From NCBI GenBank assembly GCA_025057955.1, contig JANXER010000007.1, positions 1 to 53,336 on the forward strand: a stretch of DNA of 53,336 bases, in the 5' to 3' direction. The notes under the pieces are model-generated. The model searched no databases. It saw only the letters and a list, made by a program, of their open reading frames with translations, and was not told where the DNA came from. How positions within the stretch are numbered: the first letter of the stretch is position 1; every line of letters begins with the position of its first letter. A program made the translations under genes and the position numbers. This DNA is from Candidatus Methanomethylicaceae archaeon (GTDB lineage Archaea > Thermoproteota > Methanomethylicia > Methanomethylicales > Methanomethylicaceae). This document shows, piece by piece, positions 24,489-50,917 of the stretch.

Positions 24489-25823
24489 ATGGCAAAGTAT
24501 ATGGACAAAATTGATCTCTATGACGATCGTGGAAGGCTTTTTGATACCAATGTTCCATTGGAGGCAATAAGTCCACTCAAGAATCCAGCAATTCAGAAAA
24601 TAATTAACAATATAAAGCAATTTGTGGCAGTAAATCTTGAAGGCATAGAAAAGGCCTTATCGATAGGAGAGGTTGGTGGAAAGTTCTGTATTATAAGAGG
24701 AAGAACACTAAAGCTAGATTTAGTAAAAAATGCAGAAGCCATCGCTGAGGATTTGAAGAAATGTCTTCAAGTTGATAAGGAAGATGATACTGATGTTAGA
24801 GCAATAAAGGGAGGAAAGTACTTACTAGTTAGAGTTCCAAAGAGAAGATTGGATGCTGGTGTTGAATATACAACAGGTGTAACAGCAGTTGCTGCTGCTC
24901 TTTGCTGTATAATAATACAAAGATTTAACGTCAGCATATGGGATGCTGATTTAATACATACGGCAGTTTGGGGAAGATATCCTCAAACCATGGATATGCT
25001 AGGAGGCAATGTTTCCTCGCTATTAGCAGTACCACAACAAAATGAAGGTATGGGATATGCGCTTAGAAATATTCCATGTGCTAGCATTGCTCTTATAACA
25101 AGGAAAAATGCAATGAATGCTGCAGCATTGGCAGCCATATTAGAACAGACTGCTATGTTTGAGATGGGTGATGCTATAGGAAACTTTGAACGATATCATC
25201 TATTGGGATTAGCTTATCAAGGATTAAATGCCAATAATTTAGTATATGATTTAGTTAAGGAAAATGGAAAAGATGGAACACTTGGAAGCGTAGTTATTTC
25301 CACTGTGAAAAGAGCTTTAGCAGATGGTGTAATAAGACCGCTTAGTAAAATGCCCTCTGGCTATACCCTATATACAACTGATGACTTGAATAAATGGAAT
25401 GCTTATGCTGCTGCAGGATTATTAGCTGCAACCATGGTAACATGTGGTGCAGCTAGAGCTATGCAACATATTCCCTCTGTGCTAATTTACTTCAATGACT
25501 TAATTGAAAGAGAAACTGGTTTGCCTGGTGTGGATTTTGGAAGAGTTGCAGGAACTGGAGTTGAAATGGCCTTCTTCAGCCACTCAATTTATGGAGGAGG
25601 AAATCCTGCAGTGTTTCATGGAAATCATATAGTAACAAGGCATAGTAAGGGTTTTGCTATACCATGTGTAGCTGCAGCTGTAGCATTAGACGCTGGAACT
25701 ACAATTTACAGCCCTGAAAAGATTAGTGGAATTGTTGGAGAAGTCTTAAGCGAAGTACCTGAACTTAGAGAACCATTGCGTTATGTTAATGAAGCCGCAG
25801 TTTCTATAAAAGGAGGTGTTTAA
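24489..25823 (+). CDS. mcrB: Methyl-coenzyme M reductase, beta subunit
   Basis: Beta subunit of MCR, the nickel-F430 enzyme that makes methane from methyl-CoM and coenzyme B (or the reverse). The N-terminus [35 protein letters not shown] is canonical and sets the start at ATG 24489 over GTG 24474 or ATG 24480. The [51 protein letters not shown] region contains the conserved Phe, Tyr and His that line the active site and bind coenzyme B. About 444 aa, normal. First gene of mcrBGA; mcrG follows one nucleotide after the stop. Confidence 0.98.
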
Positions 25824-25824
25824 G

Positions 25825-26601
25825 ATGATAGATTATAAGCCACAATATTATCCTGGATCATCCATTATAGCTGCTAATAGAAGAAAATACATCAATCCAA
25901 ATTATAAATTGGAAAAATTAAGATCCATAAGTGATGAGGATTTGGTCAGATTATTGGGACATAGAGCTCCAGGAGAGGCATATAAAAGTGTTCATCCACC
26001 ACTTGAGGAGATGGGAGAGCCAGAGTGTCCAATTAGACGATTAGTTGAACCTACGCCAGGTGCTAAAGCAGGAGATAGAATTAGATATGTACAGTTCACA
26101 GATTCAGTATACTTTGCTCCATTGGCTCCATATATGAGAGCATGGATGGGGCACTATAGATATCGAGGTGTGGATATAGGCGTACTATCTGGTAGAGTTC
26201 CATTGGAAGCAAGGGAACGCGATTTAGAGAAAGTAGCAAAGGAGCTTATAGAGACAGAAGTCTTCGATCCAGCAAGAGTAGGAATAAGAGGCGCCACTGT
26301 ACATGGCCATGCCTTAAGATTGGATGAAAATGGCATGATGTTCGATGCTCTGAGAAGATATCAGCTTGATAAGACCACTGGTGAAGTGGTATACGTTAAG
26401 GATCAAGTAGGCGTACCATTAGATAAGCCAATAACTCTTGGAAAACCAATGCCAGAGGATGAATTGAGAAAGAGAACCAGCGAATTTAGAGTGGATGGTG
26501 TAAGCTTTAGAACTGATGATGAACTCATAAGATTTATACAGAGGATTCATATATTAAGAACAGAAGCAGGTTTTGATCCAAATAAAGTTAAAGGAGTATA
26601 G
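25825..26601 (+). CDS. mcrG: Methyl-coenzyme M reductase, gamma subunit
   Basis: Gamma subunit of MCR, 258 aa. It begins [68 protein letters not shown], the family signature. It carries [37 protein letters not shown], which helps close the F430 pocket. The start is ATG 25825, 6 nt after AGGAGGTG; the track's GTG 25816 lies inside that ribosome site. It sits directly between mcrB and mcrA, with no mcrD or mcrC in between, unlike the mcrBDCGA order of classical methanogens. Confidence 0.98.
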
Positions 26602-26612
26602 GGGGTGGGTTT

Positions 26613-28280
26613 ATGAGTGAGGAGAAAAAGTTTATAGAAGCTCTAAGGAGAAAATTTAAAGAAGCTCCCGAGGAGAAATTTACTAAGTTCTACATATATG
26701 ATGGATGGAAGCAATCTAAGAGGAAAAGAGAATTTGTAGAAATTGCTCAAAAAATAGCAAAGGAAAGGAGAATTCCATTCTATAATCCAGATCTTCACCT
26801 AGGAGGCATTCCATTAGGCCAAAGAGTTTTAATGCCCTACAGACTATCAGGAACCGATATATACTGCGAGGGTGATGATCTTCACTTCATTAATAATGCT
26901 GCAATGCAGCAAATGTGGCATGATATTAGACGAACTGTCATAGTTGGCTTAGATGCTGCTCATATGGTCTTAACTAAGAGGCTTGGTAAAGAAGTAACCC
27001 CTGAAACTATAAATCACTACTTGGAAGTATTGAATCATGCCTTGCCTGGTGCTGCCGTAGTTCAAGAACATATGGTTGAAACACATCCTGGTCTTGTCGC
27101 AGATAGCTATGTGAAAGTGTTCACTGGTGATGATGAGCTAGCGGATGAAATTGATGATAGATTTCTAATAGACATCAATAAGGAGTTTCCATCAGATCAT
27201 GCTCAACAGCTAAAGGCAGCTATTGGAAAGAGACTCTATCAAGTTTGTAGAATGCCAACAATTGTTGCTATGACTTGTGATGGAGCTACCATGTCGAGAT
27301 GGGCTGCTATGCAAATTTCAATGTCTATGATTAATGCCTATAAGCTAATGGCAGGTGAAGCTGCTGTAGCAGAATTTGCATTTGCTGCAAAGCATGCTGA
27401 ATTAATTGAAATGGGTACTTTAATGCCTTGGAGAAGAGCCAGAGGTCCTAATGAGCCTGGGGGTATTCCACTAGGATATATTGCAGATATATGTCAAGCT
27501 TCCAGGGTTAAGCCAGAAGATCCCGTTTGGGTTGCTCTTGAGGCAATATCCATGGGTGCAGTATTATATGATCAATTCTGGTTCGGTAGCTATATGTCTG
27601 GTGGCGTAGGATTCACACAATATGCTACATGCACTTACACAGATAATATACTTGATGACTTCTGCTATTATGGTGCAGATTATGTGAAGAAGAAATATGG
27701 TGGATTTGCTAAAGTTAAACCAAATTGGGATATTATTAAGGATATAGCAACAGAAGTATCCATATATGGATTAGAGCAATACGAGAGATTTCCAGCATTA
27801 ATGGAAACTCACTTTGGAGGATCTCAGAGAGCTGCTGTAGTAGCTGCTGCAGCAGGAGTATCTGTGGCTTTAGCAACTGGTCATTCTACTGCTGGTGTAA
27901 ATGCATGGTATTTGAGCCAATTATTACATAAGGAAGAGATGGGTAGACTTGGATTCTATGGCTATGATTGTCAAGATCAATGCGGCTCTACAAATAGTTT
28001 CTCATGGAGAAGTGATGAAGGCTTAGTTTTCAATTTAAGAGGAGTTAACTATCCCAATTATGCAATGAATGTAGGCCATCAATCTGCATACACTGGAATA
28101 ATTTCAGCGGCTCATGGTGGAAGAGGAGACGCATGGACAACCAATCCATTAATTAAAGTAGCATTTGCTGACAAGGATTTGAAGTTTGACTTCACACATC
28201 CAAGGCTATGCTTTGGAAAGGGCGCTCTTAGAGAATTCATGCCTGCAGGAGAAAGAGATCTCATAATTCCAAGCCACTAA
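26613..28280 (+). CDS. mcrA: Methyl-coenzyme M reductase, alpha subunit (methanogenic type)
   Basis: Catalytic subunit of MCR, 555 aa. Active-site regions are canonical: [49 protein letters not shown], and [17 protein letters not shown]. Sites modified in known enzymes are kept: His in AKHAEL, the second Arg of PWRRARG, Gln in GGSQRA, Gly450 (thioglycine), Asp455 and Cys457. An extra Cys453 replaces the usual Leu, and Cys also occurs in YATCTYTD and DDFCYYG. The ribosome site GGGGGTGGGTTT precedes the ATG. This pattern fits true methyl-CoM reductase rather than long-alkane ACR. The direction in the cell (methane formation or oxidation) cannot be read from it. Confidence 0.99.
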
Positions 28281-28281
28281 T

Positions 28282-28310
28282 TTCTCTTTTTTATAAGAAA
28301 TGAATTTTTT
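28282..28310 (+). terminator. Possible T-rich terminator after mcrA
   Basis: Right after the mcrA stop comes TTTCTCTTTTTTATAAG. Archaeal transcription often ends on such oligo-T runs without a hairpin. The following gene starts only 30 nt later, so partial read-through is likely. Inferred only. Confidence 0.35.
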
Positions 28311-28943
28311 ATGAGTAATGGATTTTTAGCTTTAAAGAGAATTATTGAAACTATATTTGATATCTTTACATTATCACCAAAGGAAGCAAGAGAGAAGTAT
28401 GATGAATTTCCTAATTTTGCTGAACAAATTGCAAAATTATTTCAAGAGGATCGCCTTTTTGAAATACCAGAAAGATTAAACTTACAATTGGAAATTGTGA
28501 AATCCTTTAGTCCAAAAGTTCGCCCTGCCCTTGATCCATATACTTCATTACAAATTGGTGTATTCAATAAGAATTTCTCAGATTGGGAAATTGGAAGATT
28601 TTTAAACTATCCTGAATGTTGCATAAGATCCTTTATTGAAGAGATTAGATATGGCTTTGATGAAAGGCATTTGAATGAATTGAAGACATTGAGTAGAGAT
28701 TGCATTTTCATAACCACGGCTGGTTTTATTCCTCATAGCATATTTTGTGAAAAATCCATTGAAACAGGATTGGCATCTATAATCAAGTATAATGAGCTTC
28801 TACTGTTAGAAGAACTAGAAGAAGAATTAGCAAAAGCTTTACCTCATTCCCATCCAGAGTATTGGCATCATTATTATGATGTTTTGAAATTTGATACATC
28901 ACATATTATTTTTGGGAGATCTTCTAAGGATTCGATTATATAA
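28311..28943 (+). CDS. DUF483-like protein downstream of mcrA
   Basis: This 210-residue protein shows the DUF483 hallmark FLNYPECCIRSFIEEIRYGF near residue 100, with an invariant Cys-Cys pair. It has a further Cys in DRDCIF (actually SRDCIFI), another in HSIFCEKS, and a C-terminal HSHPEYWHHYYDV with several His. The Cys/His-rich profile suggests metal binding, but no function is known. It follows mcrA by 30 nt on the same strand, implying a link to MCR. No strong ribosome site is seen. Its last 70 nt overlap the convergent HAD gene, an unusually long overlap. Confidence 0.8.
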   Translation: MSNGFLALKRIIETIFDIFTLSPKEAREKYDEFPNFAEQIAKLFQEDRLFEIPERLNLQLEIVKSFSPKVRPALDPYTSLQIGVFNKNFSDWEIGRFLNYPECCIRSFIEEIRYGFDERHLNELKTLSRDCIFITTAGFIPHSIFCEKSIETGLASIIKYNELLLLEELEEELAKALPHSHPEYWHHYYDVLKFDTSHIIFGRSSKDSII

Positions 28944-29623
28944 TCAACATCATGAGGAGAATATTCTCCCTCTCTATTTACAAATACAGAAACATCAGCT
29001 ACTCTCATTGCCATTAAATCATTTATATCATTTCCCACCATAACTACACATGCATAGAATGCTTTTAGCTTTTTAACAAACTCCATTTTATCTTGTGGAG
29101 AAGCATTGTATAAAACAAATTGTTTATTTATTTTCAATATTTCTGCACATTTCAATGTAGCCCTTTTACAATTTCCTGTGGCTATAAACAAGTCGCTCAT
29201 TTTCTTTATTTCATTCAAGATTTTTTTCAAATCCTCGTATATTCTCCCGCCTAATCCCACGCAATATATAGGCTCCCCATGGTTATCTAATATAAGTGCT
29301 ATGCAAGTTCCTATCTCAGAGCCACAATGTTTATCTGCTAAACCTTCAACCTCCTTTAAAGCCTTCAAAATCTCTTCTTTTAATATAATGTTTTCATCAA
29401 TTTTCGGTGGGGCTTTTGAAAAAGCACAGCTTATCTTAAGAAGGGGTTTTTGTTTTTCTATTCTCCTTAAATCTCCTTCTATATTTAGTAAATAGCCATC
29501 AACTTCCCTTACAAGCTTCAGAGTATTTACATGATATAATAATCTTTCATTTTTTATATCAAAAGCTATTCTACAAGGTTTTAAAATAGTTCCAGATTTA
29601 TCTAATATCAAAGCTACCCTCAA
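28874..29623 (-). CDS. HAD-superfamily hydrolase/phosphatase-like protein in the MCR cluster
   Basis: A HAD-like domain of about 249 aa. Motif I is VALILDKSGTI; the nucleophile Asp is kept but the second Asp of DxD is Ser. Motif II/III regions are LFIATGNCKRATLKCAEIL and PQDKMEFVKKL, and motif IV is VVMVGNDINDLMAMRVADVSVFV, as in P-type-ATPase-like soluble HADs. A ~90-residue insert after motif I carries several Cys (KISCAFS, KHCGSEIGTC). I place the start at TTG 29623 (MRVALILDKSGT); the track uses ATG 29641, which overlaps DUF2098. The DKS motif may lower phosphatase activity. Function unknown; operon with DUF2098. Confidence 0.78.
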   Translation of the reverse strand: MRVALILDKSGTILKPCRIAFDIKNERLLYHVNTLKLVREVDGYLLNIEGDLRRIEKQKPLLKISCAFSKAPPKIDENIILKEEILKALKEVEGLADKHCGSEIGTCIALILDNHGEPIYCVGLGGRIYEDLKKILNEIKKMSDLFIATGNCKRATLKCAEILKINKQFVLYNASPQDKMEFVKKLKAFYACVVMVGNDINDLMAMRVADVSVFVNREGEYSPHDVDYIIESLEDLPKIICDVSNFKTS

Positions 29624-29625
29624 AT

Positions 29626-29898
29626 CTATCCTGCACCACATACTCCAGCGCTTGAATCAATGGTCTCTTCATCTCTTATTTGCTCTTCTCTCTCAGCTTT
29701 TCTCTCAATTTTATGCTCTACCTTCTGTTGATTATGAGCAGAGAGTTGCTTTGACTCAATTACCTCTAAGAAATCAGCATCATATAGAAGATCAGTAGTA
29801 TCTAGTCTTGCCCAAAGCTTTCCATCCATGTTTTTAAATTCTATGATTCTACCAATGGTACCTGTTCTCCTATATATTACCATGGATCCCTCTTTAAT
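29626..29898 (-). CDS. DUF2098-like small protein, possible ATT start
   Basis: A small protein (~90 aa) with an SH3/KOW-like N-terminal barrel (IKEGSMVIYRRTGTIGRIIEFKNMDGKLWARLDTTDLLYDADFLEVIE). This pattern is typical of the DUF2098 proteins of methanogens. A charged, coiled tail follows (QKVEHKIERKAEREEQIRDEE) and a small Cys/Gly end, SSAGVCGAG. The only ribosome site, GGGGGTG, lies 6 nt before an ATT codon at 29898, and upstream TTG 29913 precedes that site. ATT, or ATG 29883, is therefore the likelier start. It diverges from mmp2 by ~50 bp and precedes the HAD gene. Function unknown. Confidence 0.72.
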   Translation of the reverse strand: MKEGSMVIYRRTGTIGRIIEFKNMDGKLWARLDTTDLLYDADFLEVIESKQLSAHNQQKVEHKIERKAEREEQIRDEETIDSSAGVCGAG

Positions 29899-29964
29899 CT
29901 TCAACACCCCCAAAATCTTTAATATAAAATTCTACTTTTTTCCTTATTAATCTGAGGGACTATT

Positions 29965-30900
29965 ATGGAATCCTTGGATAAAATTATTCGCATAGCAAAA
30001 GAATTTAAGGGTTTTTCTAGGAAGATTGAAATTGGCAATATTGTAAAAATTTTTGGTAATATAGATTATGATGATGCTGGCATTATAGATATTGATGATT
30101 ATCATATTGTTGTCTCCACTGATGGAATAACTGAGGATTTGGTTGTGGTTGATCCTTGGTTTGCTGGATATTATTCTGTTCTTGTTAATGTGAATGATGT
30201 TATTGTAAAGGGAGCGAAGCCAATAGGATATGTAAATGTATTATCTGGACCAAGAGAAATTAGAGATAAAATTGCAAAGGGCATAAAGGAAGGTCTTGAA
30301 AAATATGGAATTCGTCTTCTCAAGGGACATACACATCCAGATACTTCATATTCTGCTATAGATGCTGCAGTAATTGGAATTGCAAGAAAAGTAGTAAGAG
30401 GAACTACAGCAAGCCCCCTTCAAAAAATTTTAATGGTTGTAGATCTCGATGGATCTTTTATTAAAAAGGGCTGGGTCAAATGCTTTGATAGCACAATAAA
30501 CAAATCTCCAAGAGAGGTTCAAGAGATGATATCTGCAATAATATCCTTTATTGAAAATGGAGATGTAAAATGTTCTAAGGATGTAAGTGCGCCAGGAATT
30601 TTGGGAAGTCTTGCTATGTTGTGTGAAGCAAGCAATGTAGGTGCAATTGTTCATTTGGATAAAATTCCCATTCCCAAAGATATATTAATTACAGAGTGGT
30701 TGACCTCTTATCCTGCAATGGGCTTCATATTTGGAATTATTGAAGATAGAGGGATTTCTATTCTAGAAGAGGCTGGCTTCTCTATTGGGTTTATTGGTGA
30801 ATTTACTGAAGATAATAGGCTTAGAGTTGAATACAAAGGATTAGAGTATACATTTATGGATTTTTCTAAAGAATCAGTTATTGGATTAAAATCTAGCTAG
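29965..30900 (+). CDS. Methanogenesis marker protein 2 (AIR synthase-like)
   Basis: An AIR synthase/ThiL/HypE/SelD-fold protein of 311 aa. It shows the N-terminal Asp-rich nucleotide site GNIDYDDAGIIDIDDYHIVVSTDGITEDLV and the Mg/ATP segment VNVNDVIVKGAKPIGYVNVLSGPREI. HTHPDTSYSAIDAAVIGIA and SAPGILGSLAMLCEASNVGAIVHLDKIPIPKDI complete the pattern. By sequence pattern it is methanogenesis marker 2, found only in MCR organisms. The family fold activates a substrate with ATP, but the reaction is unknown; a step in F430 or cofactor maturation is possible. It is divergent from DUF2098, and its last 8 nt overlap the convergent atwA. Confidence 0.85.
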   Translation: MESLDKIIRIAKEFKGFSRKIEIGNIVKIFGNIDYDDAGIIDIDDYHIVVSTDGITEDLVVVDPWFAGYYSVLVNVNDVIVKGAKPIGYVNVLSGPREIRDKIAKGIKEGLEKYGIRLLKGHTHPDTSYSAIDAAVIGIARKVVRGTTASPLQKILMVVDLDGSFIKKGWVKCFDSTINKSPREVQEMISAIISFIENGDVKCSKDVSAPGILGSLAMLCEASNVGAIVHLDKIPIPKDILITEWLTSYPAMGFIFGIIEDRGISILEEAGFSIGFIGEFTEDNRLRVEYKGLEYTFMDFSKESVIGLKSS

Positions 30901-32485
30901 CCTTTTCTTCCGGTAATAGGTGCTTTACTACTTCAATAGCAGGCCCCTTTGCTACAATACTTCCATTTCTGAGCAAAATTGCCTCATCACATGTCTTCAT
31001 TATGAAATCTATATCATGTGAAACTATTATGAATGTTTGTTTCAATTCCCTTCTTACACTTTTTATCGACTTTACTATGTACTTTTGAGTTATAGGATCA
31101 ATGGTTCCTGTTGGCTCATCCAATATAACTAAAATTGGCTCTTTTATCAATACTTGTGAGAGGGCAACTCTATGTCTTTCTCCCTCGCTCAATTCATCAG
31201 GATATTTATTAAATAAATTCTCTATATGACTTTCTTCAAAGCCCACTGCCTTTAATGTAATTAAGGCTTTAAATTTAGCAAATTCATCTGGAAGTTCCAA
31301 TCCTATGGCATTTGTTAAATTTTCTAAAATTGTTCTATATGGATATAGGGAATATTCTTGATGTAATATTCCAATGTAGCTTGTGGCTCTTCCTCTTCCA
31401 GTTATTCCCGGCTCACTCATGTTCACCCATTCGTCGCCTACTTTGATTAAAACTTTTCCAGAGGTGGGCACTGTTAAACCTGCTATTATTCTTGAAAGTG
31501 TAGTTTTTCCTGCTCCACTTACCCCTATTATTCCAAAAATTTCTCCTCTTCTTATCTCAAATGATACACCATCTATCGCTCTTACGATTCCTCTATCTAT
31601 GGAAAAAAAGTACTTTTTCACATTTTCTACTTTCAATATTATATCTTCCACTAATGGTCTTTCCTCTCTCAAGTCCTCTAATCCTTCTGATAGAAAAATT
31701 TTCACAATTTCTTTTGGCTCACCAATTGCTTCAATTCTTCCTTCATTCAATAATATAGCTTTATTGCTCAAGATTTCTATGCCCTCAGTTAGATGTGATG
31801 TAAGTAACATGGTAACATTTTCCTTCTTCAATTCATTTAGCATGTTATATATCATTCTTGCACTTAAGGGATCAAGCGTTCCTGTAGGCTCATCCGCAAG
31901 TAATAGAATTGGATCAATGGCTAATTGTCTAGCTAATACAACTCTTTGTTTTTCTCCACCACTTAAGTCTCTTGCCACATGAATTAATCTATGAGAAAGT
32001 CCCATTTTCTCCACAAGCTCAAGGGCTTTTTTTGTTATATCATTCTCATTGATCTTCCATCTTCTACTGAATGCCTCCATAATGTTTTCATAAACTGTCA
32101 AGTTACCATAAAGGGCAAAAGTTCTTTGAAACATTATGGCAACTCTTCTCTTGATATCTTGTACAATTTTATTTTCATTCCAAAAATCAACTTCAATCAA
32201 TTTTAAACAACATCCACATCTAAGACAATTGCCTCCAACTTTGCTTGGTCTATCAACAAAACCGCATTTTTCACAATAGGCAACTCGATAAATTATTTTA
32301 CCTGATGTTGGCTCATAATTGCTTAAACCTTTTATCATTGATATGAGTACACTTTTACCAGATCCACTTTTTCCTAAAATTCCAATACAATCTCCTTCAT
32401 TTATTATAAAAGAAACATTCTTAAGGACATATTTATCATCGAATTTCTTAGAGACATTATCTACTATAATGAAGGGCTCCACCAT
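30893..32485 (-). CDS. atwA: MCR activation component A2 (AtwA), two ABC ATPase domains with zinc ribbon
   Basis: AtwA hydrolyses ATP to drive reduction of inactive Ni(II) MCR to Ni(I). The first ABC domain has GILGKSGSGKS, an inserted four-Cys zinc ribbon (YCEKCGFVDRPSKVGGNCLRCGCC), IMFQRTFALYGNLTVYENI, LSGGEKQRV and LADEPTGTLDP. The second has GVSGAGKTT, LSEGERHRVALSQ and LDEPTGTIDP. The zinc ribbon and QRTFALYG motif are the mark of canonical AtwA. The start is ATG 32485, with GGGGAG upstream; the track's TTG 32512 lacks a site. A promoter-like TTTAAATATT lies just upstream, so it can be expressed apart from tfuA. Confidence 0.95.
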   Translation of the reverse strand: MVEPFIIVDNVSKKFDDKYVLKNVSFIINEGDCIGILGKSGSGKSVLISMIKGLSNYEPTSGKIIYRVAYCEKCGFVDRPSKVGGNCLRCGCCLKLIEVDFWNENKIVQDIKRRVAIMFQRTFALYGNLTVYENIMEAFSRRWKINENDITKKALELVEKMGLSHRLIHVARDLSGGEKQRVVLARQLAIDPILLLADEPTGTLDPLSARMIYNMLNELKKENVTMLLTSHLTEGIEILSNKAILLNEGRIEAIGEPKEIVKIFLSEGLEDLREERPLVEDIILKVENVKKYFFSIDRGIVRAIDGVSFEIRRGEIFGIIGVSGAGKTTLSRIIAGLTVPTSGKVLIKVGDEWVNMSEPGITGRGRATSYIGILHQEYSLYPYRTILENLTNAIGLELPDEFAKFKALITLKAVGFEESHIENLFNKYPDELSEGERHRVALSQVLIKEPILVILDEPTGTIDPITQKYIVKSIKSVRRELKQTFIIVSHDIDFIMKTCDEAILLRNGSIVAKGPAIEVVKHLLPEEKAS

Positions 32486-32519
32486 TACTTCTCCCCATGT
32501 ATTTGATATCAAGGAATAT

Positions 32520-34348: not shown

Positions 34349-34352
34349 AATT

Positions 34353-35594: not shown

Positions 35595-35628
35595 TTTTGA
35601 CCATCCTATAATTTGGCTGACCATTTTT

Positions 35629-39230: not shown

Positions 39231-39234
39231 TTTC

Positions 39235-40542: not shown

Positions 40543-40599
40543 TTGAAGCACCAAAAAATAATAATAGAAATTACTTTTTTATAATTCATGGTGATAAAT

Positions 40600-42575: not shown

Positions 42576-44463
42576 ATCTTCTCACATTTATTGGTGATTT
42601 TATTATACTCATTACTTCTGGAAAATCCTCTAGCCTACTATTTGGCATGAACATTGCATTTATATACTCTTCTTCAAATATTCGCTCTACAGCCAATTCT
42701 ACATATTTCATTTTCTTCACAATTTCCTCAGCCTCTTTTCTATAATCTATAGACTTCAAGCACAATCTAGCGCCTGATCCTGCTGTATTACCTAAGAAGG
42801 AGATTCTTGAAGTTGGCAAATCAGGTATAATTCCTATGATTTTTGCGCTTAAAGGATCTATATAACTTCCAAAGGCTCCTGCAATTATAATTTCAGATAT
42901 TTCTTCTTTTTTTAATCCTCCTTTTTTCATAAGTGTCATATATCCGGCATATATTGCTGCTTTTGCTTTCTGTATTTCTCTTATATCCTCTTGTGTTATT
43001 ACGATATCTTCTTCACCCGTTGCTGTTTCCTCTTTGAATACTAGAATGAACTCTTTACCAAATCCTCCCTCGCGCACTCTTCTATGGTTCTTTAAAATTA
43101 TTCTTCCTGATGTATCTATTATGCCTGTTCTCAACATTTCAGCAATAGCATCTATAATACCTGAACCACATATCCCTCTTGGTTTTTCATCATTTATTGT
43201 AATATACTCAACTTCAAAATCCTCTCTTATCTTTACTTTTTCTATGGCTCCACTAGCAGCTCTCATACCATATCTTACATGTGCTCCTTCAAATGCTGGA
43301 CCAGAGGCTGTGGAGCAACACCATAATCCTCTCTTATTGCCTAGTATTACTTCAGTATTAGTTCCAACGTCCATAAGTAGAGTAATTTTTTCTTTCTCGT
43401 GTATTCTTGATGCTAAGACATCTGCTATGGCATCTGCACCAACAAATCCTGCTATATTTGGCAATGTATAAACATTGCCAGATGGATTTATATTAATTCC
43501 AAGTTCTTTTGCCTTAATATTATAGCTCATTCCTATTACAGGAGAATAAGGAGCTAATCCAAGCCATTTTACATTTAATCCTAGAAAAAGATGATGCATA
43601 GCAGTATTTCCTACGACAACCACCTCATATAAATCCTCTCTCCTTACATCTGTTTCCATCAATCCTCTCTCTATTAATTCATTTATTCCAGCTATTATTG
43701 ATCTTTGCAATTCCTTCAGATTTTCCTCACTCTGAGATGCATATTGTATTCGTGAAATTACATCCTCGCCGTACTTTATCTGTGGATTCATAATTCCATC
43801 AGCAAATAGTATTTTTCCACTTATGAGATCTACTATGAATACCGCAAGCTTTGTAGTTCCAATATCCACAGCTACTCCATAACAATCCTTTGTTTTATCA
43901 CCAGGTTGAATATTTATAATTTCTCTATTATTTATTATTGTAAAGGTAACCTTCCAACCACTCTCTCTTAAAATCTTCGGCATCTCTTTTATAATAGTAT
44001 AATCTAATGAAAAATTACTCATTCCTAAATGGGATAGAACTTCATTAATTCTAACGTCATCCCCCCTAGGATCTTCTAATGATGGAGGATTAATTTCGAA
44101 ATAGAGCTTTTTGATATTGGGACTTACTTTAGCAGTTGGCTCTACGCCCATTATTACCAATTTTTGCCTTCCTATTCTACTCTTATCTGGAACATTTATT
44201 ATCAAATGATCTAAAACTTTCAATTGACATGCTAATCTAATTCCCTTCGCAATTCTCTCTCTACCAATTTTACGTACCTCTTGTTCTGTGGGTGGAGGAG
44301 TGCTTCCCTTTACTACTTCCACTAAGCATTTTCCACAAGTTCCTCTGCCACCGCATAATGCTACAAGATCAACATCAGCTTTCAATGCTGCTGTTAATAC
44401 TGTGGAAGAATCTTGAACTGAGATCTTCTTACCCTCTGGTAAAAATTTTACTTCAAATTCCAT
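42562..44463 (-). CDS. RACo-type reductive activator: 2Fe-2S ferredoxin plus ASKHA (DUF4445) ATPase
   Basis: 633 aa. The N-terminal plant-type 2Fe-2S domain has ALCGGRGTCGKCLVEVVKG and a fourth Cys in RLACQLKV. A middle linker follows. A large ASKHA/DUF4445 domain has YGVAVDIGTTKLAVFIVDL, VVVGNTAMHHLFLGL, LLMDVGTNTEVILGNKRG and IIIAGAFGSYIDPLSAKIIGIIPDLP. This is the layout of RACo, which uses ATP and low-potential electrons to reduce Co(II) corrinoids to Co(I). The usual role would be reactivating methyltransferase corrinoid proteins. Here it overlaps the AtwA-paralogue gene by 11 nt inside the MCR-activation operon, so a role in MCR activation is a serious alternative. Confidence 0.92.
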   Translation of the reverse strand: MEFEVKFLPEGKKISVQDSSTVLTAALKADVDLVALCGGRGTCGKCLVEVVKGSTPPPTEQEVRKIGRERIAKGIRLACQLKVLDHLIINVPDKSRIGRQKLVIMGVEPTAKVSPNIKKLYFEINPPSLEDPRGDDVRINEVLSHLGMSNFSLDYTIIKEMPKILRESGWKVTFTIINNREIINIQPGDKTKDCYGVAVDIGTTKLAVFIVDLISGKILFADGIMNPQIKYGEDVISRIQYASQSEENLKELQRSIIAGINELIERGLMETDVRREDLYEVVVVGNTAMHHLFLGLNVKWLGLAPYSPVIGMSYNIKAKELGININPSGNVYTLPNIAGFVGADAIADVLASRIHEKEKITLLMDVGTNTEVILGNKRGLWCCSTASGPAFEGAHVRYGMRAASGAIEKVKIREDFEVEYITINDEKPRGICGSGIIDAIAEMLRTGIIDTSGRIILKNHRRVREGGFGKEFILVFKEETATGEEDIVITQEDIREIQKAKAAIYAGYMTLMKKGGLKKEEISEIIIAGAFGSYIDPLSAKIIGIIPDLPTSRISFLGNTAGSGARLCLKSIDYRKEAEEIVKKMKYVELAVERIFEEEYINAMFMPNSRLEDFPEVMSIIKSPINVRRYVKR

Positions 44464-46126
44464 TCTCTTTCAACCTCATATAATCTTCAATTACCTTTGA
44501 AGGATCACCATCGCTTATAATTTTACCATTAATTATTAATATACATCTATCTGCTACTTCCTCTATGAAGTCTAATTGATGGCTTACAAGTATTATTGCT
44601 GGTTTTAGGATTAATTTAATTTTTTTCAAAATATTGGCAACTCTCCTTAAGTTTAAAGGATCTAAATCTCCAAAAGGCTCATCAAGTAGAAGTACCTTTG
44701 GATTAGATACTAGAGAAAGAGCAAGTGCTATTCTTATTTTCTCTCCACCTGAGAGCTCATAAGATTTTCTATTGAGTATTTCTGAACTAAGATTGAACCA
44801 ATTTAAAATTTCCTCTGCAATCTTTCTACTTTTCTCAAGATTTTTTTCTAAAAAAATCTCTTTTAAAGCAATTCTATCAATTCCTAATTCACTTAGCTTA
44901 ATTTCCATTTCATTTTCAGGAAGTTCCATTATTCTACCTAGGAAATCCACTTGAGTTTCACTTAATCCTATTTTTTTTGCTCTTCGAAAAGCTCCTTCTA
45001 ATAGCTTATAATCCTTAATTCCTAGCCTTGAGGAGAATAAATTCAATACTTCAGACCAATAAGGTAAATCGAACTCTTGATGCATTATGCTTATTTTTCT
45101 CCTGGCTTTAAGGCTCCTCCTTCCAAGTTTATTAATTGTAACCCATTCTCCTTTATGATATAGCAATATATTTCCAGAGTTGGGCAATTCCAATCCTGCT
45201 AATATTCTTAATAGTACAGTTTTTCCGGCGGCAGAAGGACCAATGATTGCTGTTATTTCACCAGTTCTAAAGCTCATAGTTGTATTTTTCAATTCAAATA
45301 TTTTTCCATAGGGGATCAATTTGTATACTTTTTCAACATTTTCCATCCTTAAAATCTCTCTTCCTTTTATTCTAGTTTTCTCCAGAGGTCTCTCCAATTT
45401 AGAGAGAAACTCATCAACAATTTCCTTTGGCCTTCCTTCCATTAGTTTTCTTCCCTTTTCAATAAGCACGACTCTATCTGCGAGTTTCAAATGTGTTTGA
45501 GGATTATGAGATACAAAGAGTATACTTGTTCCATAAGCATCTCTTACTCTTTTTAATGCATCAATTAAAGCCTCTCTACTTTTTATATCCGTCATAGTAC
45601 CAGGCTCATCAAGTAGTAATAGCTTTGGCTTTCTTGCAATTTGTCTTGCCACAATAAGCCTTTGCTTCTCTCCACCGCTTAATATTACAGACCAGAGATC
45701 TACTTTTCCATCCAATCCTACGACCTTCAAAATTTCCAAGGCTCTAGCTTTATATTCTTCATATTCGCTTTCACTTTGAGGTAAACTCTCCTCTTTTATA
45801 TCTTGATACCTTAAGGCTCTAATAACATTATCTATGACTGAATCTGGCCAAAGAGCAAAGGTCCTTTGAAGTTGTATTGCAGTCCTCTTCTGAAGCTCAT
45901 AAAATGCTTCCTTTGGTGAATTTGGAGTTACTTCAAGATCTTCAAATATAATTCTCCCACTATTGAAGCTCTCTACACCCCTCAATATTCTCAATAGTGT
46001 GGTTTTTCCTGCTCCACTCTCTCCTAGTATGCCTAAAATTTCTCCTCTATTCAAATTCAATGAAATTGAATTTAAAGCTGTAATTCCATTTGGAAATATC
46101 TTCACAATATCTTCACATGAAAGCAT
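44453..46126 (-). CDS. AtwA paralogue (component A2-like tandem ABC ATPase) without zinc ribbon
   Basis: 557 aa, two ABC domains. The first has GILGESGAGKTT, IQLQRTFALWPDSVIDNVI, LSGGEKQRLIVARQ and the unusual Walker B tail LLLDEPGTMTD. The second has GPSAAGKTV, MHQEFDLPYWSEVLN, LSGGEKIRIALA and LLLDEPFGDLDP. The QRTFALW motif ties it to AtwA, but the Cys4 zinc ribbon that interrupts domain 1 of AtwA is missing. GGTG stands 6 nt before ATG. It sits between mmp7 and the RACo-like gene. It may energise MCR activation or a related low-potential reduction; its exact partner is unknown. Confidence 0.9.
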   Translation of the reverse strand: MLSCEDIVKIFPNGITALNSISLNLNRGEILGILGESGAGKTTLLRILRGVESFNSGRIIFEDLEVTPNSPKEAFYELQKRTAIQLQRTFALWPDSVIDNVIRALRYQDIKEESLPQSESEYEEYKARALEILKVVGLDGKVDLWSVILSGGEKQRLIVARQIARKPKLLLLDEPGTMTDIKSREALIDALKRVRDAYGTSILFVSHNPQTHLKLADRVVLIEKGRKLMEGRPKEIVDEFLSKLERPLEKTRIKGREILRMENVEKVYKLIPYGKIFELKNTTMSFRTGEITAIIGPSAAGKTVLLRILAGLELPNSGNILLYHKGEWVTINKLGRRSLKARRKISIMHQEFDLPYWSEVLNLFSSRLGIKDYKLLEGAFRRAKKIGLSETQVDFLGRIMELPENEMEIKLSELGIDRIALKEIFLEKNLEKSRKIAEEILNWFNLSSEILNRKSYELSGGEKIRIALALSLVSNPKVLLLDEPFGDLDPLNLRRVANILKKIKLILKPAIILVSHQLDFIEEVADRCILIINGKIISDGDPSKVIEDYMRLKENGI

Positions 46127-46129
46127 ATC

Positions 46130-47044
46130 TTACACCTTGATTAGATAGGACTGAGGGAGAATTTTAACTAATATGTAGCTTCTCATTAGAGATTTTTTAA
46201 TATTAGCTATATCACCAAGCCTCCTTCCCTCAATATCTATGGAGGCCACTTTATATCTATAATCATCATAAGGTAATTTTATTCTTAAACCATCTATTTT
46301 CAATGTGATTGGGCTAGGTGAAAGTGCCTCTAGAGCTTCTGGCATTTGTCTTTCAATTTCCTTTTTCACAAGTGCTGGCTCTACAATTAAAGGATCAAGA
46401 TCCATTTCCCTTCTTCTCTTCTCAGCCACTCTTTCTGCCAAATCAGATACTAATTCCAATTTTTCAATCATTTCATTAATTCTAAATCTCTCTGGATATC
46501 TACCAATACCTCCTACATAACCTTCAATTCCTGGCAGTTCAATTTCATCAGGACCACCTGTTACAATAATGGGTATGGATATATCTTTGAATAATTTTGT
46601 TTTGAAGTTTTTTAGACAATATTCAAAATTTCCAAGCACAAATATAGCAATATCATGTTCTTCTATAAGTTCACGATCTTCTTTACTTATATGCGCTATT
46701 TTCTGACCAACACCTCTTGAAAGCCCTAATAGATTTGTCTTAGCTCCATGTCTTCTTAGATTCTCTGCAATATCACAAGCTGGATGAGGTAAATGATGTC
46801 TCGAGAGGCTTGGAGCTACTACTACAATCTCCACTCCTATGAGTGGAGCTTCCTTTAAGCTTCCCTTCAGTTCCTCTGCAATTTCCATCACTTTTTTTAA
46901 ATCATTTTCTGGAACAGCTATATGCATTATTAAATCAAGTCCAATGACATTCTTTTGTATGATAAAACCTCCTAAATCTTCCACAAACTCCACTAAAATT
47001 TCATGTTTATGGACTCCTCCTTCAAATATAAGATACTTTAGCAT
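46130..47044 (-). CDS. Methanogenesis marker protein 7
   Basis: ~304 aa. The family pattern is clear: KYLIFEGGVHKHEILVEFVEDLGGFIIQKNVIGLDLIMHIAVP, then VVAPSLSRHHLPHPACDIAENLRRHGAKTNLLGLSRGVGQKIAHISKEDRELIEEHDIAIFVLGNFEYCL. Mmp7 is a subunit of the A3a complex that activates MCR, together with McrC, Mmp3, Mmp17 and AtwA (established in Methanothermobacter and Methanococcus). Conserved His and Cys (HHLPHPACD, FEYCL) may take part in iron-sulfur cofactor binding (inference). ATG 47044 fits the ribosome spacing; TTG 47050 is the track start. It overlaps mmp17 by ~23 nt. Confidence 0.92.
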   Translation of the reverse strand: MLKYLIFEGGVHKHEILVEFVEDLGGFIIQKNVIGLDLIMHIAVPENDLKKVMEIAEELKGSLKEAPLIGVEIVVVAPSLSRHHLPHPACDIAENLRRHGAKTNLLGLSRGVGQKIAHISKEDRELIEEHDIAIFVLGNFEYCLKNFKTKLFKDISIPIIVTGGPDEIELPGIEGYVGGIGRYPERFRINEMIEKLELVSDLAERVAEKRRREMDLDPLIVEPALVKKEIERQMPEALEALSPSPITLKIDGLRIKLPYDDYRYKVASIDIEGRRLGDIANIKKSLMRSYILVKILPQSYLIKV

Positions 47045-47576
47045 TATCAATCATCTCCATTGCCTTCTTAATCCATTCCTCTTTAATGGGATCCTCTGAA
47101 GCAATTATAATTATAATTTCATCTCTCTTCATAGAACGTCTAATTTTGAAGCCTTCGGGTAAAATTCTTGATATCAACTCCGTAATTTTCTCAGTAACAC
47201 TTATTGCCTTCTCTCTTATCTTAATTTCTTTCAAGTATTCTAAATCAACTCCTTTTACAAGAATATCATTTCTTCCTATTTGCTCAATCTTGTCTCTTCC
47301 CAACTCACTCCAAAGCGCCCTCAGAGCATCAGCTAGATCCAATTCATTATCAAGCGATATCTTAATACTATCAGATCTCACCTCAAATTTTGCTAAATCT
47401 TTAAGTACGTTCTTCCTTTCAAATTCTCTATAGCTTATACTGATTATAAAGAGGGGGATTTCCGGTCTTATATATGCATATAGCCATTTTATGCTTCCAC
47501 CTAATGCCAAATCTTCTACAGCTCTTTCAATGAGATGTCTATAACGCTCTCCTCCCTTCTTATCAGAGGAGTCCAC
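47022..47576 (-). CDS. Methanogenesis marker protein 17
   Basis: 184 aa, the expected size. N-terminal VDSSDKKGGERYRHLIERAVEDLALGGSIKWLYAYIRPEIPLFIISI is characteristic of the family, as is the C-terminal ILPEGFKIRRSMKRDEIIIIIASEDPIKEEWIKKA. No Cys is present. Mmp17 is part of the MCR activation complex A3a (established for its homologue). GTG start. It lies between mmp6 and mmp7, its 3' end overlapping mmp7. Confidence 0.9.
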   Translation of the reverse strand: MDSSDKKGGERYRHLIERAVEDLALGGSIKWLYAYIRPEIPLFIISISYREFERKNVLKDLAKFEVRSDSIKISLDNELDLADALRALWSELGRDKIEQIGRNDILVKGVDLEYLKEIKIREKAISVTEKITELISRILPEGFKIRRSMKRDEIIIIIASEDPIKEEWIKKAMEMIDNAKVSYI

Positions 47577-47589
47577 AATGAGCCTAATT

Positions 47590-47988
47590 TTAAGCCTCCT
47601 CCACTATTTTTTTAAGGATTTCATAATTCAATTTATCTCTCTTTCTTCTAGGAGCCTCCTCAGCACTTTCTAGCGCTTTAGCAACGTTCTTTAGTACACT
47701 TCTCTCCAATCCTAGCATGAAAAAACCTGGCCTTGGTCCTCCGCCTCTTTTTGCTCTACAAATTCTTTCATCTCCTATTCTAAATCCCCTCGCTTTTACA
47801 AATATTCTATTTGGATCCATCTCCTTCAATTCCTTTATGGCCTTCTCAACGACTTCATCCTCTCCCTCTATTAAGAGGCCATAGCAAGTCTCCTTATAAT
47901 TTATATCACTGATCTTAGAGATTTTCTCCGCCAACATTGATGGTGTTAAATTTGAATCTGGTGATAGCATAACCACATAAGTTTTCAT
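47590..47988 (-). CDS. Methanogenesis marker protein 6
   Basis: 132 aa. The conserved core RIFVKARGFRIGDERICRAKRGGGPRPGFFMLGLE is diagnostic for marker 6. The N-terminus (YVVMLSPDSNLTPSMLAEKISKISD) forms an alpha/beta unit. The function is not known, but it always accompanies MCR genes. The ATG coincides with the last base of mmp3 (1-nt overlap), and mmp17 follows 13 nt later. Confidence 0.92.
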   Translation of the reverse strand: MKTYVVMLSPDSNLTPSMLAEKISKISDINYKETCYGLLIEGEDEVVEKAIKELKEMDPNRIFVKARGFRIGDERICRAKRGGGPRPGFFMLGLERSVLKNVAKALESAEEAPRRKRDKLNYEILKKIVEEA

Positions 47989-49478
47989 TAATTAGCCTCC
48001 ATAATGTAAATTTCATCATTTTCTCTAATATTTTTCAAATTCTCCAAACCTGCTATAACTTCCCCTATTATATTGCTTCCATCGAACCCCTCAGCTGTTG
48101 GACCAAATTTTTCACTTCTTGATAATCTTATTCCAATTATACCTACATTCTTCTTTACAGAATTGGTCACTCCTATTACTCCAGCATTAACACCCTCCTT
48201 TGGAGTATTCTCTGGTATGAGCATTTTTTCTATATTACCTTTGAATAAAACTACATCCTTTGTTGCAAAGAAAACTTTCAAACACCCTATTTTTTTCAAG
48301 TCCATTCCAGTAACTCTTTCAAAATATTTCACAGTAACTGGTGCAAGCTCCCTATATAGTTTTATTTTCAAGATTTTATTCTTTGATATCCCTTTACAAA
48401 TCACCTTTCCTTCTTTATAAATTTCTAAAGTGGTTGATGGCATATGATCAACAATTATAGCATCATCACTGACATCTTCTTCTCTTATACATCTTATGCC
48501 TAAATTCTTCAAAATGATGGAAGCTTCATATTGAGTCTTTCCCAATAATTCTATTTTAGCTGGATTGACTATAACTTTAATTCTATCTCCTTCTAAAGCT
48601 ACATCAGCGAGCTCCAATCCCTTTGTGATCTTGCCCACTATTGTATGATCAATGGATATTGGCGCTCTATCCGTATATACATAGATGGATCCTGTCATAA
48701 TTCCTCCATTTCTAATAGAGATTACACCTCTTTCCCTAATTCCAATTTTTTCTCTTTCCAATGAAGTTACGTATTTATCATGTGAAATGAATCTACTAGT
48801 CTTTCTTGAGACTAGAAAGCCATTAGCTAATGCATTATATAAATATTCTCCATTCTTGGGAGATTCAAAATCCAAGGAAATTTCCATATGAGTTATTATT
48901 TCATCTCCATAATTTGGTACGTAATCTAAATTTACTCGCATTAATTGTATTCCTCCTCTTTCCTTTACTATGGGGGAGATTTTTTCTATATAATCTCCCA
49001 CTTTCAATAATTCAAGAATATGTCTTCCATAGACCACTTTTCCCATAATATCTCCATCATCTGGAGGAAAATATAATCCAACATGAGTTTTCTTGCTAAA
49101 TATTAAATGCGACTCATCTAAACTCATTCCAGATAGACTGATTGTAATCTCATATTGTTTTAACTCAATTTCCTTTATTAATGGTTTAAAGTTTGAGATT
49201 GTAGGGCCAAAGGCTATGGCCTCATTGGTTGCCCATCTTACTTTACAACCTTCAAAATTTTTGTAAACTTTTCTCCATTTATCTAGAGCTTTTTCACATT
49301 CCCATCTTATTATAATTTTACCTCTATTAGTTATTACCTCATAGAGATTTGTAATAATTTTTTCTATATCTATTGGCCTTTTCACTGCTATAATGAAATC
49401 ATTAAAATTAGGTAATATTTTCCTTAGATTCTCCCCCTCTTGAATTTCAAATTCAATTCCATCCACTATAATCTTCAT
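47988..49478 (-). CDS. Methanogenesis marker protein 3 (UPF0288)
   Basis: ~496 aa, the size of marker 3. It starts MKIIVDGIEFEIQEGENLRKILP (ubiquitin-like first strand pair). The middle has GGIMTGSIYVYTDRAPISIDHTIVGKITKGLELADVALEGDRIKVIVNPAKIELLGKTQYEA. The C-terminal cyclophilin-like part is VKYFERVTGMDLKKIGCLKVFFATKDVVLFKG...GVIGVTNSVKKNVGIIGIRLS. It is a subunit of the A3a MCR activation complex in methanogens. The track start 49565 runs into the divergent mcrD; ATG 49478, 6 nt after GGTG, is right. First gene of a 7-gene operon reaching to 42033. Confidence 0.93.
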   Translation of the reverse strand: MKIIVDGIEFEIQEGENLRKILPNFNDFIIAVKRPIDIEKIITNLYEVITNRGKIIIRWECEKALDKWRKVYKNFEGCKVRWATNEAIAFGPTISNFKPLIKEIELKQYEITISLSGMSLDESHLIFSKKTHVGLYFPPDDGDIMGKVVYGRHILELLKVGDYIEKISPIVKERGGIQLMRVNLDYVPNYGDEIITHMEISLDFESPKNGEYLYNALANGFLVSRKTSRFISHDKYVTSLEREKIGIRERGVISIRNGGIMTGSIYVYTDRAPISIDHTIVGKITKGLELADVALEGDRIKVIVNPAKIELLGKTQYEASIILKNLGIRCIREEDVSDDAIIVDHMPSTTLEIYKEGKVICKGISKNKILKIKLYRELAPVTVKYFERVTGMDLKKIGCLKVFFATKDVVLFKGNIEKMLIPENTPKEGVNAGVIGVTNSVKKNVGIIGIRLSRSEKFGPTAEGFDGSNIIGEVIAGLENLKNIRENDEIYIMEAN

Positions 49479-49534
49479 ATAGTACACCAAACAATTATTT
49501 ATCACCTCTCTCAAATTTATAAAAGGTGCCTTTA
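49479..49534. promoter_or_regulatory. Divergent promoter region, mmp3 operon / mcrD-mcrC-mmp5
   Basis: A 56-bp spacer with GGTG sites for both genes (mmp3 side and AAAAGGTGCC on the mcrD side). For mmp3 a TATA-like TTTTATAAATTT reads on the minus strand about 35 nt before the ATG. AATTATTTAT can serve mcrD. Control of the two operons from one short region ensures joint expression of MCR activation factors. Confidence 0.5.
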
Positions 49535-49873
49535 TTGAGCGAGCAAGAGATAGAATTAATGCCAAGAAGATTAATGTCCATGGATAGGGCAGATGAGCTT
49601 GTTAATATGCTTAAGGCTACTGGCTTAATTAGTGAAGTACTATTGCAAAAACACAAATATTATGATGGAAAATACTTGGTTGGACGCTTTATATTATTGA
49701 TTAATAATCCTCCGAATGAAGTTATAAGCAAAATTGCTCCAATTTGTGAAAAAATGATGCCATATGGCTATGATATTAGAGTAGGTAAATTTACAAAACC
49801 AAGGCCCACAGTCTCAGACTATATTAGGGAGGCAATATATTGGAGCGAACTATTGGAAGGGGAACGCAAATAG
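49535..49873 (+). CDS. mcrD: McrD protein (MCR assembly chaperone-like)
   Basis: ~112 aa. McrD signatures are present: IELMPRRLMSMDRADELVNMLKATGLISEVLLQ at the N-terminus (ELxPxRLL pattern) and ICEKMMPYGYDIRVGKFTKPRPTVSDYIREA at the end. McrD binds MCR and is thought to help assembly or cofactor insertion; it is not in the active enzyme. The track start GTG 49526 is inside the GGTG site; TTG 49535, 6 nt after it, is the likely start. It is separated from mcrBGA by 21 kb and paired with mcrC, overlapping it by 34 nt. Confidence 0.9.
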   Translation: MSEQEIELMPRRLMSMDRADELVNMLKATGLISEVLLQKHKYYDGKYLVGRFILLINNPPNEVISKIAPICEKMMPYGYDIRVGKFTKPRPTVSDYIREAIYWSELLEGERK

Positions 49874-50511
49874 TTGATTGTAGAGAAGCGCAAGGAGTGG
49901 GAATAGGTGGAGGTTTAGCTCAAAGAGGGACGATTTCAGAATCCGAACGCCTTGATGTTGTTGCAATAGCAATGTCTCCTTCAAAGAGGCATATTACAAA
50001 ACCCATTTGCGAAATAACCTATGGACTTAGGGAGCAAGGAATAAGGACTAGCGTATTAGTTCTTGAATCTGGATCAGGAGTTCCACCTGATTCACCATAT
50101 GGTGGTGCACCAGGTGGAACAATGGCTGGAATTACTGAGAAGGAAATTCTTCAAATAAAGAGATTTAAGTTAGCAATTCTTCATCTTGGTGGTATTGCAG
50201 GTCATGTAGTATATAAGGCAAGAGCTTTTTTACGTTACGTGGATATTCCAGCCATAATTGTTTGTGAGGCACCTGTGGACTATGAGGATTTCGCAAAAGT
50301 TGGTATAATAACAAGATTGGTTCGCCCTCCTCCAGATAGAGTGGAATGTCTTGGCATAATTGTGGATATAGTGACTGGAGTTGTTAGAGGTGTGAGCGTT
50401 CAAAGAGATAAATTGAATGAAATAATATTAAAGGTTAAATTTTGGTTAAATAAAATAGAGGAAGGATCGGTGAAATTAATTGGCCAAAGTATATATCCAT
50501 CCTCCAAATAG
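49840..50511 (+). CDS. mcrC: McrC protein (MCR activation complex subunit)
   Basis: 223 aa, canonical: IGRGTQIVDCREAQGVGIGGGLAQRGTISES, RHITKPICEITYGLREQGIRTSVLVLESGSGVPPDSPYGGAPGGTMAGITEKE, AILHLGGIAGHVVYKARAFLRYVDIPAIIVCEAPVDYEDFAKVGI. It is a core part of the A3a activation complex in methanogens. Conserved cysteines in VDCRE, KPICEI, VCEAP may hold metal clusters (inference). The start is TTG 49840, 7 nt after GGGAGG, inside the mcrD end. The stop region overlaps mmp5 by 32 nt. Confidence 0.96.
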   Translation: MERTIGRGTQIVDCREAQGVGIGGGLAQRGTISESERLDVVAIAMSPSKRHITKPICEITYGLREQGIRTSVLVLESGSGVPPDSPYGGAPGGTMAGITEKEILQIKRFKLAILHLGGIAGHVVYKARAFLRYVDIPAIIVCEAPVDYEDFAKVGIITRLVRPPPDRVECLGIIVDIVTGVVRGVSVQRDKLNEIILKVKFWLNKIEEGSVKLIGQSIYPSSK

Positions 50512-50917
50512 CCTAATTTTATTCGATTTAGTTAGGCGATTTGGGCATACTCCTCTTGGATTGGGTGAGGAGGTTTCTAAGAATGTCAATAAGCCAGAGA
50601 TTGATTCTCCTCCAATGAATATAACTCCCGATTTTCCTAGAAAGGGCTTAAAATATGTTGCAATAGAGGTTCCTTCTGGGGTTAGAGGAAGATTGGCTCT
50701 AATAGGTCCATTAATTGAAGAGGCAGATGCTGCAATAATAGTAGATGATCCAGAGGTTGGCTTTGGATGTACAAGCTGTGGAAGAGCTAATGAATTCCTC
50801 ATATATCTTGTGAAGCAGAGAGGAATTCCTTACATTGTGGTTCCCTATCCTTATACCGAAGAAGAAGCGAAAATCATGGTTAGTGAGATTAAAAAGTTCC
50901 TAGCCTCTTTACATTGA
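50480..50917 (+). CDS. Methanogenesis marker protein 5
   Basis: 145 aa. The beginning AKVYIHPPNSLILFDLVRRFGHTPLGLGEEV is the marker 5 signature. DDPEVGFGCTSCGRANEFLIYLVKQRGIPYIVVPYPYTEEEAK carries a CxxC pair. The function is unknown, but the gene is confined to MCR organisms. The TTG start follows GGTG by 7 nt within mcrC. Third gene of mcrD-mcrC-mmp5. It converges with a 77-aa unknown gene 2 nt away. Confidence 0.88.
   Translation: MAKVYIHPPNSLILFDLVRRFGHTPLGLGEEVSKNVNKPEIDSPPMNITPDFPRKGLKYVAIEVPSGVRGRLALIGPLIEEADAAIIVDDPEVGFGCTSCGRANEFLIYLVKQRGIPYIVVPYPYTEEEAKIMVSEIKKFLASLH

Follow-up and report, generated by a model that had tools for sequence, protein, structure and literature searches.

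A methyl-coenzyme M reductase biogenesis and activation locus in a Methanomethylicales archaeon and two candidate helper proteins encoded in it

Background

Methyl-coenzyme M reductase (MCR) makes nearly all biological methane, and to our knowledge it is still unsolved how cells reduce the nickel cofactor of the enzyme. The closest described system is the activation complex of Methanococcus maripaludis, which comprises McrC, Mmp7, Mmp17, Mmp3, A2 and a DUF2098 protein (PDB 8s7v, 8s7x, 9h1l; PMC12176620). It carries nitrogenase-like iron-sulfur (FeS) clusters, whose ligands are C12, H49, C55 and H118 of McrC and H84, C143 and perhaps C90 of Mmp7; which donor supplies the electrons in the cell is not known, and the purified complex is much less active than mature MCR, so that the authors say extra factors may be needed (PMC12176620). 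As for gene order, 13 mcr and methanogenesis-marker (mmp) genes lie within ~16 kb in Methanomassiliicoccales and were suggested in 2014 to serve Mcr (PMC4153887), mmp clusters also occur in Methanothermobacter marburgensis and Methanosarcina (PMC12176620), and marker genes were found on mcr scaffolds of TACK archaea (PMC6783470). Here we describe the MCR locus on a contig of 53,336 bases (JANXER010000007.1), the whole of which was analysed and is called the window below; it comes from an archaeal genome of 1.21 Mb, 94% complete, which is a member of Methanomethylicales. We consider it likely that this is a vertically inherited locus for MCR biogenesis and activation, in which a protein of 77 residues (u77) and a second twin ABC ATPase (AtwA2) are candidate helpers, and in which a reductive activator of corrinoid proteins (RACo) and a protein of 180 residues (u180) belong to corrinoid chemistry. 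Clustering of such genes is already published; what is new here is the sorting of the little-studied genes of the block, above all u77 and AtwA2.

Organization of the MCR locus

The MCR gene set spans positions 24474-51153 of the window. NCBIfam or Pfam models confirmed the named genes in place, with McrB, McrG, McrA, McrC, AtwA, YcaO, TfuA, Mmp3, Mmp5, Mmp6, Mmp7, Mmp15 and Mmp17 all above curated cut-offs, which bears out the near-complete set for MCR synthesis, modification and activation that the initial annotation had read from the sequence. That annotation had also seen a single set of 26 kb; the clustering is real, but it is not one continuous block, since ~6.4 kb of housekeeping genes outside the MCR set (35629-42000, encoding a GTPase, a ThiN regulator, thiDN, a NERD nuclease, nadE, tpi and a TrpY-family regulator) divide it into blocks at 24474-35624 and 42033-51153. 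In the second block seven genes from mmp3 to u180, all on the minus strand with gaps of 13 bp at most and several overlaps, probably form one operon, judging by their spacing. This run faces mcrD, mcrC and mmp5 on the plus strand, and u77 (minus strand) comes after mmp5. Most of the activation genes had been assigned to this operon, which is right for mmp3, mmp17 and mmp7 but not for canonical atwA, found ~13 kb away with atwA2 in its place; the 633-residue RACo-type protein of the operon (42562-44463) had been left unnamed.

The activation subunits that had been listed (McrC, Mmp3, Mmp7, Mmp17 and AtwA) are all present. McrC (49840-50511, plus strand; TIGR03264, 282 bits), the FeS-cluster subunit next to F430, has C14, H51, C57 and H122 in the positions of the M. 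maripaludis ligands C12, H49, C55 and H118, and the FeS-cluster subunit Mmp7 (46130-47050, minus; TIGR03274, 407 bits) has H86, C92 and C145 for H84, C90 and C143, these residues of Mmp7 being invariant among 12 sequences; over the two proteins together, 7 of 7 ligand residues are conserved. Also encoded are Mmp17 (47022-47576, minus; TIGR03291, 127 bits), Mmp3 (47988-49469, minus; TIGR03268, 447 bits), whose profile begins at residue 32 of the longest frame and whose likely start is near 49469, and canonical component A2, the twin ABC ATPase AtwA (30893-32512, minus; TIGR03269, 758 bits), with its two CxxC pairs. The DUF2098 protein (29626-29913, minus; PF09871, 76 bits), a small subunit binding McrC, matches chain L of PDB 8s7v, 8s7x and 9h1l, and its place in that complex is thus already known from solved structures (PMC12176620). 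McrABG, McrC, Mmp7, Mmp17, Mmp3, AtwA and DUF2098 are therefore common to M. maripaludis and to the window, where they are known from their genes; unlike in M. maripaludis, where further mmp genes are dispersed, these are clustered here with AtwA2, u77, a HAD protein and a DUF483 protein.

u77 and AtwA2

u77 (50920-51153, minus strand), a candidate MCR assembly or activation factor, belongs to no Pfam or NCBIfam family and has no significant match among PDB sequences. Co-occurrence with mcrA, which had been proposed as a check on the little-studied genes, holds well for it: profile searches found u77 in 24 of 27 Thermoproteota genomes with mcrA and in 0 of 54 without, at one copy per genome, and in Halobacteriota it is present in 78 of 88 genomes with mcrA against 4 of 60 without. 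The gene lies between mcrC and mcrBGA in three loci (L145, L146 and L149, with a gap of ~7 kb to mcrB in L145), upstream of mcrB in L144, and beside DUF2098 within a few kb of mcrBDCGA in L147 and L148; in Methanomicrobiales it directly follows mmp14 (L105, L114). Its AlphaFold model (predicted local distance difference test, pLDDT, 91) has the order beta-alpha-beta-beta-alpha, with KH folds as the best match (best E 6e-3). The model lacks a beta-alpha-alpha-beta core and the alignment a conserved GxxG, and by these criteria the predicted structure is a KH-like fold match only, not a KH domain. Separately, in the three Halobacteriota loci L145, L146 and L149 a tandem pair of canonical atwA genes precedes mcrC, u77 and mcrBGA.

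AtwA2 (44453-46126, minus strand), a candidate MCR-activation ATPase, had been called a paralogue of AtwA. The protein scores 309 bits with TIGR03269, below the cut-off of 517, and falls in a deep clade apart from AtwA with 100/100 support and long branches. It has two ABC ATPase cores, with two Walker A and two Walker B motifs; LSGGE signatures number two in AtwA2 of the window and its class and one in canonical AtwA. The two CxxC pairs, which we take to be the zinc motif of A2, are absent from all AtwA2 checked and present in nearly all AtwA checked. AtwA2 was found in 7 of 7 Thermoproteota with mcrA and 0 of 34 without, in 23 of 38 Halobacteriota with mcrA, and in Bathyarchaeota BA2, and from the tree the split between AtwA and AtwA2 probably predates Thermoproteota and Halobacteriota. 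Its gene is next to mmp7 in the window, as it is in one Halobacteriota genome that has four McrA genes (mmp3-mmp17-atwA-mcrC-mmp7-atwA2; L151), and in BA2 it lies within the mcr locus (L153). That Methanothermobacter has AtwA paralogues is an old observation (PMC3087415).

RACo and u180

The RACo-type protein (42562-44463, minus strand), of the 2Fe-2S type and by its family a predicted ATP-dependent reductive activator of corrinoid proteins, has the linker, middle and ASKHA C-terminal domains and an N-terminal 2Fe-2S domain (PF14574, PF17651, PF17650, PF00111), as RamA/RACo corrinoid activases do, but unlike these it is encoded inside an MCR-activation operon and not in a methyltransferase locus. 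It is a single copy in the host genome, and co-occurrence with mcrA fails for it, RACo being found in many archaea without mcrA (of the methanogen controls, M. acetivorans has it and M. jannaschii does not).

u180 (42033-42575, minus strand), of no Pfam or NCBIfam family, is present in all members of the order, and divergent paralogues have RamA as their neighbour in loci that also encode mtaB, mtaC, mtaA and a CobW protein (L123 and, judging by its similar layout, L125). The MCR block of genome G011 is without u180, and the homologue there adjoins a B12-binding protein (L121). Its AlphaFold model (pLDDT 91) found no significant fold match in PDB; weak matches to epoxyqueuosine reductase and nitroreductase (best E 0.11, low TM) were not used. 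The prediction that the little-studied genes of the block serve MCR is not supported for u180, which we rejected as an MCR factor since its paralogues sit with corrinoid genes away from MCR; by context it is a corrinoid-system accessory. From family and gene context, RACo and u180 most likely serve corrinoid activation for methyl transfer to coenzyme M. We also observed a protein of ~340 residues with no Pfam family, adjoining the u180 paralogue in the RamA loci (L123, 7005-8027; L125, 6496-7515), which is probably another corrinoid-system accessory.

Gene order in relatives

The named close relatives of the host are Ca. Methanomethylicus, Ca. Methanosuratincola and further Methanomethylicota, and a family of the same class, f6, is Nezhaarchaeota; in the literature these lineages are methanogens of the methyl-reducing or hydrogenotrophic kind (PMC10033731, PMC6783470, PMC9635834). 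Two MCRs and a small genome had at first suggested Ca. Methanoliparum for the host, a placement given up once the relatives were seen to be Methanomethylicales. Mmp7 was found in 22 of 22 other sampled genomes of the order, in 5 of 6 sampled f6 genomes and in no other sampled relative. Within the order the full arrangement, housekeeping genes included, is largely kept at protein identities from ~40% to 97%, and in some genera the two blocks are on different contigs (L118 and L120 vs L020 and L042). Because the housekeeping genes are conserved along with the rest (their order at 35629-42000 is kept in most members of the family), this conservation is weak evidence for function. In f6 the order is mcrC, mmp3-mmp6-mmp17, mcrBGA, atwA2, mcrD, u77, DUF2098, DUF483, mmp5, mmp15, mmp7 and atwA, with ycaO-tfuA farther on, and the fetched stretch of this cluster has none of the housekeeping genes, RACo, u180, the HAD gene or the Mmp2-like gene. 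Since the MCR genes are clustered throughout the order and again, re-ordered and free of these housekeeping genes, in f6, their grouping goes beyond chance.

Compared with the cluster of Methanomassiliicoccales, the window likewise has the mcr operon, atwA, mcrC and marker genes within one short stretch (PMC4153887), but the genes are in another order and in two blocks split by housekeeping genes, and they include thioamidation genes, RACo, u180 and AtwA2. Methanothrix and Methanoregula have a cluster of the M. marburgensis/Methanosarcina type (atwA-mmp3-mmp6-mmp5-mmp15-mmp17-mmp7), which shares with the window the core order mmp3-mmp6-...-mmp17-mmp7; unlike there, mmp5 and mmp15 of the window are outside the run, and atwA2, not atwA, follows mmp7.

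Inheritance and alternative readings

Tight grouping could mean a horizontally transferable MCR island, as the initial annotation had proposed, and most MCR-dedicated genes do lie within 27 kb. Yet in 11 genomes of the family an alignment of 11 MCR genes and one of 7 housekeeping genes from the same contigs gave an identical topology with 100% support, and on this ground we rejected joint transfer within the family. Housekeeping genes also stand among the MCR genes and travel with the block, and for Thermoproteota the published inference is that Mcr was inherited vertically (PMC6783470, PMC9635834). An island is therefore very improbable, a transferable unit is not supported, and the locus appears vertically inherited. 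It is also quite unlikely that every gene of the operon serves MCR, RACo being then an ATP-dependent donor of low-potential electrons that acts via Mmp7 and McrC on F430. RACo is flanked by atwA2 and u180 in a compact operon that includes mmp7, an arrangement found across the order; this would suit such a role, as would its 2Fe-2S domain and ASKHA ATPase and the missing electron donor of MCR activation (PMC12176620). Against it, RACo is not confined to archaea with mcrA and is not in the f6 cluster, it is the sole RACo of a lineage whose reported methyl-reducing metabolism calls for a corrinoid activator, and away from MCR u180 accompanies RamA, mtaBC or a corrinoid protein.

For u77 and AtwA2 we infer from linkage and co-occurrence that both act in the MCR activation process, which is more than had been claimed at first, as they are mcr-linked across phyla; we would give about an even chance to u77 being an unrecognised small subunit of wide distribution, and AtwA2 a second ATPase of ancient origin, in the machinery for MCR assembly or reductive activation. 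They could instead serve a neighbouring process of methanogens, such as Mtr methyl transfer or coenzyme recycling, with co-occurrence a shared mark of methane metabolism. The position of u77 after mmp14, a gene linked to Mtr by position (PMC4153887), would fit this, as would several Halobacteriota AtwA2 genes without an MCR neighbour within the 20 kb fetched; we find it unlikely, however, given that u77 stands by mcrC-mcrBGA or DUF2098 and AtwA2 by mmp7 or in mcr loci in several independent orders, and that Methanomethylicales have both proteins although many members are reported without a complete Mtr (PMC10033731, PMC9635834). Several points tell against our reading. Linkage and co-occurrence are not function, and the work on M. 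maripaludis reports neither u77 nor AtwA2 as a co-purifying subunit (PMC12176620). u77 is missing from 10 Halobacteriota with mcrA and present in 4 without, and Fisher tests for it, extreme as they are, are only indicative because the genomes are related, many are incomplete and the counts are not independent. The 15 of 38 Halobacteriota that have mcrA and no AtwA2 mean that it is not essential everywhere, and the AtwA2 count in that phylum took in mcrA-bearing genomes only. Finally, RACo and u180 share an operon with Mmp7, which leaves room for an MCR role.

Other genes of the window

The first block opens with mcrB, mcrG and mcrA for the MCR subunits (24474-28280, plus strand; TIGR03257, TIGR03259 and TIGR03256, far over cut-off). 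Only 30 bp after mcrA comes the gene of the DUF483 protein, a probable MCR accessory (28311-28943, plus; PF04467, 106 bits). Every mcrA-bearing Thermoproteota genome sampled has DUF483 at 86-121 bits, those without mcrA give weak partial matches only, and it is present in the differently ordered f6 cluster; of two methanogen control genomes, M. jannaschii has it and M. acetivorans does not. A literature search on DUF483 gave nothing relevant. The HAD protein (28874-29641, minus; TIGR01525, 58 bits, PF00702) is like a stand-alone P-type ATPase phosphorylation domain; in the Thermoproteota sample it is confined to the order of the window, with none in f6 or in relatives without mcrA, and a homologue stands beside atwA in Methanomicrobiales. 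We infer that it is of the same family as the 'soluble P-type ATPase' arCOG01579, which is listed for >90% of methanogens other than Methanomassiliicoccales and for no further archaea (PMC4153887). That HAD and DUF483 serve MCR, as had been predicted, is plausible, and they are weaker candidates than u77 and AtwA2.

The gene at 29965-30900 (plus strand) had been named mmp2. An AIR-synthase-type gene is there and is conserved beside atwA in the order, but with 249 bits against a TIGR03267 cut-off of 365 it is Mmp2-like only. The tfuA and ycaO genes for McrA glycine thioamidation (32520-34348, minus; NF033432 and TIGR03266, above cut-off) and mmp15, of the acyl-CoA dehydratase activase type (34353-35624, minus; TIGR03286, 652 bits), complete the first block; the second also holds mmp6 (47590-47988, minus; TIGR03272, 131 bits), mcrD (49526-49873, plus; PF02505, 54 bits) and mmp5 (50480-50917, plus; TIGR03271, 208 bits). 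McrD of the window is of an unusually short form and matches only the C-terminal half of PF02505.

Ordinary housekeeping genes fill the leftmost 21 kb of the window. Directly upstream of mcrB are a sulfonate/taurine-type ABC transporter (21305-23823, plus strand) and an HTH regulator (23804-24373, plus), and in the order as a whole an ABC ATPase gene stands ahead of mcrB. Coenzyme M is a sulfonate; as candidate roles, the transporter could import it and the HTH protein could regulate mcr. Elsewhere in the host genome (contig C3, L003, 8933-12700, minus strand) is a second, divergent McrA-McrB-McrG set, with an MtaA-type methyltransferase gene, a CstA-like gene and an apparent corrinoid protein as neighbours. 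We rejected the idea that AtwA2 is dedicated to this second MCR, as f6 genomes with a single McrA carry AtwA2. Similar divergent McrA are found in three other members of the order, including LCB019-004, for which a second McrA of the alkyl/ethyl-CoM reductase type is published (PMC10033731).

Implications for MCR activation

The genes are present, and the cluster ligands and the linkage are conserved; the working of the complex is taken by analogy from the M. maripaludis structure. Once McrBGA is made, YcaO and TfuA would thioamidate a glycine of McrA and McrD would help to load F430, after which McrC-Mmp7-Mmp17-Mmp3, with DUF2098 and the ATP-driven AtwA, would dock on MCR and pass electrons via three nitrogenase-type FeS clusters, reducing F430 from Ni(II) to Ni(I). 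AtwA2 may act as a further clamp driven by nucleotides, either on the Mmp7 module or on MCR itself, and u77 as a small docking subunit in the neighbourhood of McrC and DUF2098. RACo and u180 would restore to the reduced state the corrinoid proteins from which coenzyme M receives methyl groups. With two genes of the block most likely belonging to methyl transfer, a shared operon is by itself too generous a predictor of function. The locus and its relatives together give a ranked list, with u77 and AtwA2 first, HAD and DUF483 next, and RACo and u180 last. If the role proposed for them is true, u77 and AtwA2 may count among the factors still missing for the activation of F430 by physiological reductants.

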